This document shows, one piece after another, positions 4,173-57,001 of a DNA stretch of 64,000 nt. This DNA comes from Streptomyces sp. NBC_01275 (GTDB lineage Bacteria > Actinomycetota > Actinomycetes > Streptomycetales > Streptomycetaceae). The position numbers were made by a program, and so were the translations under genes. The first letter of the stretch is position 1. Every line of letters begins with the position of its first letter. The notes beneath the pieces are model-generated. The model was not told the DNA's origin. It was given only the letters and a program-made list of their open reading frames with translations, and did no database searches. The stretch spans positions 4,340,001 through 4,404,000 of the forward strand of contig NZ_JAPEOZ010000001.1 in assembly GCF_026340655.1 (NCBI RefSeq). The letters run 5' to 3'.

Positions 4173-4904
4173 GTGCCGAAGCTGAATCAGATCATCGCCG
4201 TGGAAAAGGGCGTCAAGTCGAAGTCCCTGCAAGAACTCACGCAGGCCCATCACGATGTGCAGAAGCCCGCGTTGCTTGCCGGGATCTCTCGCACGTACCA
4301 GGCGAAGGACGAAGAGGGCGAGCAGTTGCCGCCGGAGTCCACACGGGTCCAGGTCAAGGCGGAGGACGTGCTGCGTTCCGCGGCCGCGACGCTCACCCGG
4401 CTGTTCGACGTGACGGCGGCGAAGGACTGGGCGAACCGTACGGCGGTCGCCGACGTGGTCGTCGACGGCACCGTGCTGCTGTCCGCCGTCCCGGTGCCGT
4501 ATCTCCTGTTCCTGGAGAAGCAGCTCACGGATCTGAACACCTTCGTGCGCAAGCTGCCGGTGCTGGACGCCTCCGAGTCGTGGACGTTCGACCCGTCGAC
4601 GGACGGGTGGAAGACGGAGGCGGTGCGGACCATCCGTACGAAGAAGGTCCCCCGCAACCATGTGAAGGCCGAGGCCACGGAGAAGCACCCGGCCCAGGTC
4701 GAGGTGTACTACGAGGACGTGCCCGTGGGCTACTGGACCACGGTCAAGTTCTCCGGCGCGCTGCCGGCCCGCAGGGTCAACGAGCTGATCGACCGGGTCG
4801 AGAAGCTGCAGCAGGCCGTGAAGTACGCCCGCGAGGAGGCCAACGGCATCGAGGTCACCGAACAGAGAGTGGGTGACGCGGTGTTCGGCTACCTGTTCCG
4901 GTAG
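4173..4904 (+). CDS. Conserved actinobacterial protein (recalled as DUF7873) upstream of tRNA-like RNAs
   Basis: Soluble 243-residue protein of unknown function; I recall the family as DUF7873 but cannot check this. No signal peptide or membrane segment is present. It is rich in charged residues, with a basic centre (TIRTKKVPRNHVKAEATEK at about 158-176) and a C-terminal helix with coiled-coil character (RRVNELIDRVEKLQQAVKYA). The GTG start has TAGCTT ending 6 bases before it and no Shine-Dalgarno, so a leaderless mRNA is likely. Forty-six bases after the stop begins a pair of permuted tRNA-like elements on the same strand, with no obvious separate promoter. The basic patch and this context suggest RNA binding or processing, which is inference only. 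Confidence 0.75.
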   Translation: MPKLNQIIAVEKGVKSKSLQELTQAHHDVQKPALLAGISRTYQAKDEEGEQLPPESTRVQVKAEDVLRSAAATLTRLFDVTAAKDWANRTAVADVVVDGTVLLSAVPVPYLLFLEKQLTDLNTFVRKLPVLDASESWTFDPSTDGWKTEAVRTIRTKKVPRNHVKAEATEKHPAQVEVYYEDVPVGYWTTVKFSGALPARRVNELIDRVEKLQQAVKYAREEANGIEVTEQRVGDAVFGYLFR

Positions 4905-4915
4905 CCCCCTGATCG

Positions 4916-4949
4916 CCCCTCGTGCGAGCGAGGGGTGCGCGAAGAGCGC
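4916..4949 (+). other. Two small hairpins between the unknown gene and the tRNA-like elements
   Basis: CCCCTCG (4916-4922) pairs with CGAGGGG (4929-4935) around a TGCGAG loop, and GCGC (4937-4940) with GCGC (4946-4949). They could be a weak terminator, an mRNA/RNA processing site, or part of the leader of the tRNA-like transcript. No T tract follows. Confidence 0.5.
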
Positions 4950-5089
4950 AAGCTGAAACTGATGTTGAAGCTGAACCAGGGGTGACAGTTGGGGGTTCGA
5001 ATCCCTCCCCCGGCACACAGGCCGGGGTGGCCCAAATGGCAGAGGCGGCCCCATGAATCTCAGATTCTCGCTCCAGTCTCAGTATTCGC
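4939..5089 (+). ncRNA. Circularly permuted tRNA-like element 1
   Basis: The 3' half comes first: anticodon-stem strand GGGGT (4979-4983), T arm GGGGG-TTCGAAT-CCCTC (4991-5007), acceptor strand CCCCGGC (5008-5014) and A73. After CACAG the 5' half follows: acceptor GCCGGGG (5021-5027, seven perfect pairs with 5008-5014), TG, D stem GCC/GGC (5030-5032/5044-5046) around a loop with GGCAGA, then anticodon strand GCCCC (5048-5052), which pairs with GGGGT. Beyond the anticodon stem, 4953-4973 pairs with 5061-5082 (CTGA, ACTG, GAA, CTG against CAG, TTC, CAGT, TCAG), extending the stem. CCA is not encoded. The split lies in the anticodon loop, so the anticodon cannot be read with certainty. Confidence 0.6.
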
Positions 5090-5267
5090 CACCGAACGCC
5101 GGATCGACCGAGCGCGGACGATCGTCGACGAATAGGGGTTCAAGTCCCCTCTGTGCCTCTCCCTAATCTCCACCTCTTCACCTCTTCGTTTCCTTCCGTG
5201 GCACGGTAGTTCAAAGGCAGAACGCGTCGACCTCAGAATGATCCGCGGCTCTTAAACGCCGCCGGTG
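5090..5267 (+). ncRNA. Circularly permuted tRNA-like element 2
   Basis: Same architecture as element 1. 3' half: anticodon-stem strand CGACG (5126-5130), T arm AGGGG-TTCAAGT-CCCCT (5134-5150), acceptor strand CTGTGCC (5151-5157), then T. A 41-base pyrimidine-rich spacer follows. 5' half: acceptor GGCACGG (5200-5206, pairs with 5151-5157, one G-U), TA, D arm GTTC-AAAGGCA-GAAC (5209-5223), G, anticodon strand CGTCG (5225-5229). The anticodon stem extends to GTCGACG/CGTCGAC; beyond an eight-base bulge CTCAGAAT, GATC, CGCG and CTC (5240-5251) pair with GAG, CGCG and GATC (5110-5123). The D arm and T73 resemble tRNA-Gly, but no anticodon is certain. Confidence 0.6.
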
Positions 5268-5289
5268 TGCGCAATTGGGTGGCACAACA

Positions 5290-5321
5290 GGCCTCGGGAG
5301 CCGGATACCGCTCCCGGGGCC
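5290..5321. terminator. Bidirectional hairpin terminator after the tRNA-like array
   Basis: A 12-bp stem, 5290-5301 with 5310-5321 (one T-G pair), and an 8-base loop lie between the RNA elements and the convergent cellulase gene. It probably ends the plus-strand transcript. Confidence 0.65.
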
Positions 5322-5447
5322 GTCCCCATTCATGAAGGCCTGTCCGCGAAGGCGAAGACCTGTCCGCGAAGACGGCGACCTGGCCGCCAGGAAGGGCACC
5401 CGGTGACCGGTGACAAGCCCCGGGCGCCCCTCACACCCCCCACCCCC

Positions 5448-11482: not shown

Positions 11483-12004
11483 ATGGAGATCACCATCAGA
11501 GACGCCGGTCCCGACGACATCCCCGCGATACTCGGCATGCTCGACAGCAGTGTGGAGTGGCTGGTCTCACAGGGGCGCACCGGTCAGTGGGGGACGAAGC
11601 CCCTGTCGGAGAGCCCGAAGACGGTGGAGTCGGTCGTCCGGTACATGGAGGAGGGCCAGGTGTTCGTCGCCGAGGTCGACGGGGTGCCGGCCGCGACCCT
11701 CACGATCACCGGCTCGCCCGGCGTCTATCTGTCCCACCTCGCGCCGCCCGGCGAACCCGAGCGGTACATCCACTGGCTCGCCTCCGACCGTCGCTTCAAG
11801 GGCCACGGCGTGGGCAGCGCCCTCCTCGTGCACGCCGCCGAGGAGACCCGGCGGGCGGGCGTCTCCCTCCTCCGGGTGGACTGCTACGCGGGCGGCGACG
11901 GCAAGCTGGTCGCCTACTACGAGGCCAACGGGTTCGTCCCGACGGAGGGGTACACCCTCGGCGAGAACAAGTGGCCGGGACAGGTGCTGGCCCGGCGGGT
12001 GTAG
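11483..12004 (+). CDS. GNAT-family N-acetyltransferase
   Basis: Cytoplasmic 173-residue acetyltransferase using acetyl-CoA. The acetyl-CoA pyrophosphate loop is RRFKGHGVGSAL in the middle of the protein, followed by the typical YYEANGFVPTEGYTLG at the end of the fold. The ATG at 11483 is preceded by CATTAT seven bases upstream and no Shine-Dalgarno, so leaderless expression is likely. It is divergent from thpR. The acceptor substrate is unknown. Confidence 0.9.
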   Translation: MEITIRDAGPDDIPAILGMLDSSVEWLVSQGRTGQWGTKPLSESPKTVESVVRYMEEGQVFVAEVDGVPAATLTITGSPGVYLSHLAPPGEPERYIHWLASDRRFKGHGVGSALLVHAAEETRRAGVSLLRVDCYAGGDGKLVAYYEANGFVPTEGYTLGENKWPGQVLARRV

Positions 12005-56666: not shown

Positions 56667-57001
56667 GGAGGCGAGGCCCTTTCTCCTCATCTTCCTCACG
56701 ACGCATCTCGCCGTGAGACGGATTTGGCACCTTCCCGAGCCGGGAGCCTCGCGCGCATGAAATGCGGCAAGACCGGCTGGAGGGTTGCCGGGGCTTCATC
56801 GGGCCGTATCCCTCTGCCCCTCTGGATGAGCGGTATGAAGTTGTAAACGACAGCGACCTCGGACATGCGATGGTCATCCGCGTTGTTCAAGACTGTAACC
56901 GAAGGCCAGGACAGTTGAGATAGTCGTCCGAACCGCGAGATGGATCACACGGTCACCTGCCGTGCACCCGGTGTGATCACGACAGTGAGGAGCCGCTGAT
57001 C
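56667..57001. other. Divergent control region of thrC and gpgS
   Basis: The 335-base gap holds no gene. It contains a hairpin CTCACG/CGTGAG near 56694-56716 in the thrC leader and the 8-bp inverted repeat described separately. No threonine-rich leader peptide was evident. Confidence 0.5.
56943..56978. promoter_or_regulatory. Inverted repeat upstream of the glucosyl-phosphoglycerate synthase gene
   Basis: GATCACAC (56943-56950) and GTGTGATC (56971-56978) are exact inverted arms 28 bp apart, ending 23 bases before the GTG start; it could be an operator or an mRNA hairpin. Confidence 0.45.

Follow-up and report, generated by a model that had tools for sequence, protein, structure and literature searches.

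A ~400-nt RNA with two permuted tRNA-like modules accompanies DUF7873 genes in streptomycetes and phages

Introduction

A conserved RNA of ~400 nt (roughly 4914–5321, + strand) lies directly 3′ of a DUF7873 gene (4173–4904) in the window, by which we mean the whole 64,000-nt stretch of the 10.4-Mb Streptomyces sp. NBC_01275 genome that was analysed. Comparison of loci shows, at the level of sequence, the RNA and its fold as well as a co-occurrence with DUF7873 and a spread among phages, and we infer that DUF7873 is the partner of the RNA. The explanation that we favor, and consider probable, is a two-part system composed of a DUF7873 protein and a trans-acting noncoding RNA, which would represent a new Y-RNA-like family.

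Permuted bacterial RNAs that mimic tRNAs are known as partners of Ro60, circularly permuted tRNA genes are found in algae and archaea, and tmRNA has a tRNA-like part and is permuted (two-piece) in some lineages. In the locus described here a permuted tRNA module is paired with a second protein family (among the matches listed for 147 genomes, a gene without a full-length RNA and an RNA without a detected gene each occur once), and our results suggest that permuted tRNA modules have been reused in a second ribonucleoprotein. DUF7873, a family with thousands of members, gains a testable role, and the phages provide a system that can be tested for RNA surveillance, tRNA handling or counter-defence. 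The name DUF7873 was not found in the literature searched, most subscription papers lying outside that search; in the same literature, with the main Y RNA papers outside it, we recognised no prior description of the RNA, and an earlier one may exist.

Results

The RNA and its features

A reading of the sequence alone (hereafter the first-pass annotation) had assigned two tandem tRNA-like elements to 4939–5267. Both elements lie inside this span, but the RNA extends beyond it, since hairpins at 4914–4939 and 5290–5321 also belong to it. The features of the locus are as follows.

4173–4904, + strand: DUF7873 gene, 243 aa, the putative protein partner (PF25283, E 1.6e-118)
4914–4939, + strand: GC-rich 5′ hairpin of the RNA (sequence; by eye in Streptomyces loci)
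4952–4974, + strand: leader containing four UNA units spaced exactly 6 nt apart (runs compared with shuffles and controls)
4979–5052, + strand: permuted tRNA-like module 1 (relaxed scan, covariation, sub-gathering Rfam YrlA match)
5059–5082, + strand: conserved UNA-containing middle strand, in the window CTCAGATTCTCGCTCCAGTCTCAG (kept in loci without module 1)
5097–5102, + strand: 5′ strand of the element 2 outer helix, partner 5262–5267 (two-sided changes at 6/6 pairs)
5103–5107, + strand: internal-loop motif AUCGA, opposite UUAAACG at 5252–5258 (invariant columns)
5110–5116, + strand: 5′ strand of the element 2 inner helix, partner 5244–5251 (two-sided changes at 7/7 pairs)
5126–5229, + strand: permuted tRNA-like module 2 (relaxed scan, covariation, R1 match)
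5232–5241, + strand: tail UNA units, CTCAGAATGA (invariant A3 columns; excess at spacing 6)
5290–5321, + strand: 3′ hairpin with GGNUA in the loop region (anchored loci compared with control pieces)

The 3′ hairpin with GGNUA recurs in 35/52 anchored loci of a first set, which comprises viral contigs, three named phages and the window, and in 27/43 anchored streptomycete loci, compared with 25/747 control pieces. Rfam at gathering thresholds gave no match at the RNA locus, a pattern search of 4850–5400 detected neither a sigma-70-type promoter nor a terminator, and ARAGORN found no tRNA in the 64-kb window. Folding 4939–5267 as a single sequence revealed a stability no greater than that of shuffles (z −0.04). 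Elsewhere in the window, a SAM riboswitch (RF00162, 77.4 bits) is located at 56684–56832 on the − strand.

Two tRNA-like modules in circularly permuted order

The central claim of the first-pass annotation, that two tandem tRNA-like modules are circularly permuted, was confirmed: in each, the 5′ acceptor strand and D arm come only after the T arm and 3′ acceptor strand. In element 1, the T arm (4991–5007, loop TTCGAAT) is followed by the 3′ acceptor strand CCCCGGC (5008–5014), a 6-nt linker, the 5′ acceptor strand GCCGGGG (5021–5027) and a D arm (5030–5046) that we take to be of the leucine type; the anticodon 3′ and 5′ strands are at 4979–4983 and 5048–5052. Element 2 has its T arm at 5134–5150, the acceptor strands CTGTGCC (5151–5157) and GGCACGG (5200–5206) separated by a 42-nt linker, a D arm at 5209–5223, and anticodon 3′ and 5′ strands at 5126–5130 and 5225–5229. 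These acceptor strands, and the anticodon-strand pairs GGGGT/GCCCC (element 1) and CGACG/CGTCG (element 2), had been named in the first-pass annotation and are present in the sequence.

A strict scan for permuted tRNAs detected element 2 only, and 3 chance matches appeared in 20 dinucleotide shuffles of the 64-kb + strand. Because the strict scan missed element 1, its D-loop rule was later relaxed. The relaxed scan recovered both elements on the + strand, together with one chance-like match at 11790, and nothing on the − strand; its control is the 1 kb 5′ of the gene in viral loci (see below), the shuffle figures applying to the strict scan only. A permuted-tRNA search of the window is thus positive for both elements in its relaxed form and negative for element 1 in its strict form.

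Comparative support for the fold

Element 1 was aligned from 39 of 65 loci, hand-picked to limit size and redundancy (A4), and element 2 from 39 of 44 candidates (A3); the five removed from A3 by hand (L082, L086, L087, L088, L115) were all matched later by R1, a covariance model built from element 2. Both elements retain the acceptor, T and D helices, with a covariation of 0.519 in A4 compared with 0.144 in shuffles, and of 0.806 in A3 compared with 0.243 in shuffles and at most 0.190 with partners slid. Pairing in these three helices was a criterion in choosing the loci, which leaves the outer helices, the anticodon-like stem and the repeats as the only features independent of selection. RNAalifold, applied to a plain MAFFT alignment of element 2 (39 loci), predicted 29 pairs, 28 of which show two-sided changes. 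R1 itself matches the window at 5082–5274 with 135.5 bits, the window having been part of the model.

The first-pass annotation had also proposed that DNA outside each module pairs to extend the anticodon stem, and here the two elements differ. For element 2 the outer complementarity is strongly supported by 13 covarying pairs in an outer and an inner helix, all with two-sided changes and with 87–91% of cells paired: 6/6 pairs in the outer helix (5097–5102/5262–5267; 91.0% of cells) and 7/7 in the inner helix (86.9% and 91.2%). The window itself breaks two pairs in this register, both non-standard pairs of the inner helix. The AUCGA/UUAAACG internal loop is invariant in the 39 sequences at columns A22, T23, C24 and A26 and at T171, A173–A175 and G177, partly as a result of selection, since loci were anchored on AUCGA- and UUAAA-type motifs; tail columns T158 and A160 of A3 are invariant as well. 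With its internal loop, the basal stem of module 2 has a layout like that of the Y RNA basal stem.

For element 1, a 14-pair outer helix had been described, and it was not borne out: RNAalifold predicted no such pairs in 39 aligned loci, and the region is instead a leader of UNA repeats. Antiparallel pairing between repeat centres exceeded shuffles at one of four positions (13/39 loci compared with 7.6 in shuffles, 2 of 300 of which were as high); relatedness is the more likely explanation, since the same middle position exceeds shuffles out of register too. UNA units are nearly self-complementary and can therefore mimic an outer helix in a single sequence. Covariance thus upholds the acceptor, T and D helices of both elements and the outer helix of element 2, but not that of element 1. 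The first-pass annotation had considered functional tRNAs, decoys and structural RNAs as options, and the last of these is upheld as one option.

Module 1 is replaced by a short hairpin in 8 of 31 loci read by eye (L003, L004, L008, L011, L013, L021, L026 and L027), and the flanking strands stay. A script flagged T loop 1 as missing in 19/110 streptomycete loci, six of which have, by eye, only a longer linker; its loose pattern also overlooks losses that are visible by eye. The conserved middle motif was found by script in 106/110 streptomycete loci, and all 106 of these have a T-loop match where module 2 lies.

The anticodon region and the 6-nt repeat

At the position of the anticodon stem, 57% (element 1) and 60% (element 2) of cells are paired, compared with 39% in shuffles, whose maxima are 51% and 50%, respectively; this is moderate evidence, since the variable-loop length was chosen as the best-scoring geometry. 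The anticodon stem of the first-pass annotation is therefore kept in position, but more weakly than the acceptor, T and D helices. In place of varied anticodons, a recurrent CUNAG-type sequence was seen by eye. The CTCAGA that had been noted as shared by the two anticodon regions is present, but it is one unit of a 6-nt UNA repeat.

The repeat is most evident in the leader. UNA occurs there at exact 6-nt spacing in 121 pairs, compared with 11.2 in mononucleotide shuffles, and runs of at least four units are found in 27/47 distinct loci, the frequency of such runs being 0.3% in dinucleotide shuffles and 0.2% in 880 control pieces; these counts overstate independence, since the loci share ancestry. 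An excess at spacing 6 extends to the middle (44 vs 12.6) and tail (50 vs 11.1) and consists mostly of pairs of units, runs of at least three being only slightly above shuffles (3/47 in the middle and 4/46 in the tail, compared with ~2%). The 6-nt spacing suggests that the RNA is lined by several copies of a protein, each with a 6-nt footprint, which makes the repeat an unusual and concrete prediction of how the protein would coat the RNA.

These data bear on the possibility that the modules are circularly permuted tRNA genes whose products are spliced or circularised to working tRNAs. The order of halves is that of the algal and archaeal genes, the 3′ half with tRNA helices standing before the 5′ half; the tRNA geometry is canonical; linkers start with NCCA in 18/45 (element 1) and 13/44 (element 2) distinct cases; and an RtcB ligase is present. 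Yet the splicing endonuclease domain tRNA_int_endo (PF01974) has 0 matches in the host genome, compared with matches in 4/14 control genomes, all archaea; CUNAG-type sequence recurs where anticodons should vary; and some streptomycetes carry a hairpin in place of module 1. In the absence of varied anticodons and of a splicing endonuclease match, the modules are probably not tRNA genes, a mature tRNA is not to be expected as in algae and archaea, and we regard this proposal of the first-pass annotation as unsupported and highly improbable. Tandem identical tRNA-Asn genes (L242, L243 and host C1:3071895–3071990) mimic a permuted tRNA, are matched by R1 at 33–133, and are a trap for permuted-tRNA searches.

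Co-occurrence of the RNA with DUF7873

The DUF7873 family is large (7228 matches among 7999 scored candidates). Its best AlphaFold2 model has a mean pLDDT of 92.8 and a pTM of 0.78, two of five models being weaker (75.8 and 67.1), and gave no confident fold match against a structure library; RNA binding by DUF7873 is consequently predicted from its linkage to the RNA. The most conserved stretch, A168-T169-x-x-H172-P173-A174-Q175, would lie at the tip of a hairpin, since it is situated between long predicted strands (151–166 and 175–194).

R1 was run over 147 genomes of the order, with genome lists compiled by hand. Counting as full-length a match to model positions 1–160 with E <1e-8, among the matches listed (sorted by E-value), the RNA was found in 71/72 genomes with DUF7873 and in 1/75 without it, and 74/147 genomes had neither. 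The Fisher p is 5e-40, which overstates independence, since streptomycete genomes are related, but RNA and gene correspond almost one to one. The two exceptions are G089, which has an intact RNA and no detected DUF7873, and G029, which has the gene and, in the matches listed, only a partial match beside it. Any R1 match at E 0.001 occurs in 129/147 genomes, since Ro-linked Y RNAs and tandem tRNAs match partially. In G089 the intact RNA (L241) is without DUF7873 in the genome or beside the RNA, through loss or through a gap in an assembly of ~910 contigs. G003 contains two copies of the DUF7873 gene, and a separate full-length RNA lies near each of them.

DUF7873 is also found in another family of the order (12 genomes), and in an even sample of the phylum it is present in 7/396 genomes, all of the window's genus. 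Among 14 named control genomes it was found only in Deinobacterium chartae, which also has TROVE. A Nonomuraea record holds the gene with the RNA (R1 match), and a Streptomyces plasmid has an R1 match; the Nonomuraea record (L246, NZ_LT559118.1), 11.85 Mb and labelled a plasmid, is probably a chromosome.

Spread among phages and independence from the gene

DUF7873 protein was detected by tblastn in 73 phage records. At least one permuted element lies within 1 kb 3′ of the gene in 70/79 viral loci (two in 49), compared with 3/79 within 1 kb 5′, the control of the relaxed scan. The 79 loci are 80 minus L117, which has no ORF end, and include L091, whose frame stops 10 codons after the match start, so that its "downstream" begins inside the gene. 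R1 matched 56/61 loci at E 0.1 or better, including 10/10 named-phage loci. This test set comprised 51/80 viral loci and the 10 named-phage loci, of which only L051 was in the model and a few others are near-duplicates of its members; of the 29 viral loci outside the set, 26 built the model and L077, L095 and L109 are near-duplicates. No R1 match was obtained at L067, L068 and L104, where the gene is present, or at L117 and L135, both of which end early. The named phages are those of Arthrobacter, Gordonia (2), Rhodococcus, Pseudanabaena, Microcoleus, Klebsiella, Vibrio and Rhizobium (2), and the match is partial in the Klebsiella, Vibrio and one of the Rhizobium phages. The pair of gene and RNA thus occurs in actinobacterial, cyanobacterial, Klebsiella, Vibrio and Rhizobium phages.

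Visual reading of 31 loci, that of the window and those of the 30 best-scoring relatives, placed the RNA after the gene in every case. Since it is usually directly 3′ and on the same strand, it might act in cis, as a 3′ UTR element by which the DUF7873 mRNA is controlled or stabilised. We consider this improbable, because the RNA is on the strand opposite to the gene in L105 and upstream of it in L112, a HEARO RNA match (4950–5159) and a neighbouring CDS separate gene and RNA in the Microcoleus phage locus L057, and G089 has the RNA without a detected gene (with a gap among its ~910 contigs possible).

A FastTree phylogeny of 110 proteins was rooted with the sequences from Klebsiella, Vibrio and Rhizobium phages. 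Its 21 streptomycete sequences (20 of 80 loci and the window, copies from the other family and Nonomuraea being left out) form one clade with support 0.947. The nearest neighbours are L058 and L059 (support 0.941), with 0.30 and 0.19 at the next deeper nodes; these, like the other viral contigs, are predicted viruses. The simplest reading of the tree is that the streptomycete copies sampled derive from one entry from phages.

Relation to Ro60-bound Y RNAs

The closest known RNAs, as judged by sequence and predicted fold, are the Ro60-bound bacterial Y RNAs (YrlA, RF02553). YrlA resembles a circularly permuted tRNA (PMC13355120, consulted in part); its basal stem tethers Rsr, and its tRNA-like domain is a binding site for PNPase and a substrate of the modifying enzymes TruB and DusA, according to the part of PMC8394870 consulted. 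The two systems have in common a permuted T/acceptor/D domain on a basal stem, an adjoining protein gene and, at the five streptomycete Ro loci read, tandem modules. They differ in the partner (DUF7873 here, not TROVE), in the loop of the basal stem and in the 6-nt UNA repeat, the longest UNA run in ten Ro-linked modules read being 0–1.

The RNA might be a plain YrlA-type Y RNA, bound by Ro60 and merely adjoining DUF7873. Besides the permuted module, there are Rfam YrlA matches on element 1 (27.5 bits, E 8e-4, 4967–5070; the best Rfam match at relaxed thresholds) and on the DUF7873-linked RNAs of 3/7 named-phage loci and 4/8 further DUF7873 or RNA loci, all below the gathering score of 69, and TROVE is matched in 44/72 DUF7873 genomes. 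The window RNA has the permuted T/D/acceptor domain, but it falls short of the 69-bit threshold and has no detected TROVE gene: Ro60, searched as TROVE (PF05731), has no match in the host genome and none in 28/72 genomes with DUF7873. Across the 147 genomes, both are found in 44, DUF7873 only in 28, TROVE only in 35 and neither in 40, an association that is not significant (Fisher p 0.098); TROVE counts are less certain than those of DUF7873, since the matches are short (profile positions ~267–354 of 442) and a divergent Ro60 may be missed.

Furthermore, the Ro loci of five relatives, chosen for the best partial R1 matches near TROVE, have tandem Y RNAs of their own, with two permuted tRNA-like modules each (L236–L240, − strand). 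Seven Rfam YrlA matches at these loci score 31.5–41.2 bits; with both groups below the gathering value of 69, this threshold does not tell them apart. R1 matches the Ro-linked RNAs only within model positions 54–125, from which it follows that the tRNA-like module is common to both groups and the rest differs. We regard a plain, Ro60-bound YrlA as quite improbable for the window RNA.

A model for the DUF7873 system and its use in phages

For the favored two-part system, we envisage that the region 4914–5321 would be transcribed as one RNA, to which DUF7873 may bind as a scaffold protein, as suggested by linkage and by the Y RNA analogy, with several copies placed along the UNA units at a 6-nt footprint. 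Each module consists of a T arm, a D arm, a loop-capped acceptor helix and a short anticodon-like stem, and module 2 is mounted on the basal stem. By analogy with YrlA and its PNPase, TruB and DusA contacts, the modules may recruit or divert tRNA-handling enzymes, and tRNA-rich phages would gain from the system; the scaffold role, the encounter with these enzymes and the benefit to phages all draw on that analogy. The main selective use would likeliest be in phages, where the RNA is often near tRNA genes. A bolder version, which we offer tentatively, is a phage-born class of ribonucleoprotein in which UNA-aligned DUF7873 subunits display two permuted tRNA bodies. Phages might use this particle to capture tRNA-handling machinery or to protect it, for instance from tRNA-cleaving defences, and streptomycetes would have domesticated it.

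A special case of the two-part system is a tRNA decoy, in which tRNA bodies without an anticodon loop would absorb or block tRNA-cleaving defences. The phage loci are rich in tRNAs (286 by ARAGORN in 637 kb, with at least one in 41/80 loci), YrlA has been proposed as a possible competitive inhibitor of an anticodon nuclease (PMC7790460, in the part consulted), and tRNA arrays are discussed as anti-defence in the portion of PMC12803027 seen. Nonetheless, the fetched stretch is free of tRNAs in 39/80 viral loci, PADLOC gave no match, and the RNA is retained on streptomycete chromosomes; a counter-defence role of this kind is possible but rather unlikely.

GOLLD and ROOL are likewise structured phage RNAs, often near tRNA islands and of unknown function (PMC12286853, consulted in part). 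The RNA described here is smaller and differs from them in its tRNA-like modules and tightly linked protein gene, and the GOLLD and ROOL Rfam models gave no match at the window locus, the named-phage loci or the further DUF7873 or RNA loci searched. A tRNA-like part is shared with tmRNA, and module 2 of the Klebsiella phage locus L056 has a sub-threshold beta-tmRNA match (24.8 bits, gathering 84); in contrast to tmRNA, T and D arms occur twice, and there is no tmRNA match at the window locus. Separately, the Gordonia phage Phendrix (L052, 2072–2600) carries an unannotated tmRNA match of 89 bits, above gathering, between annotated tRNAs.
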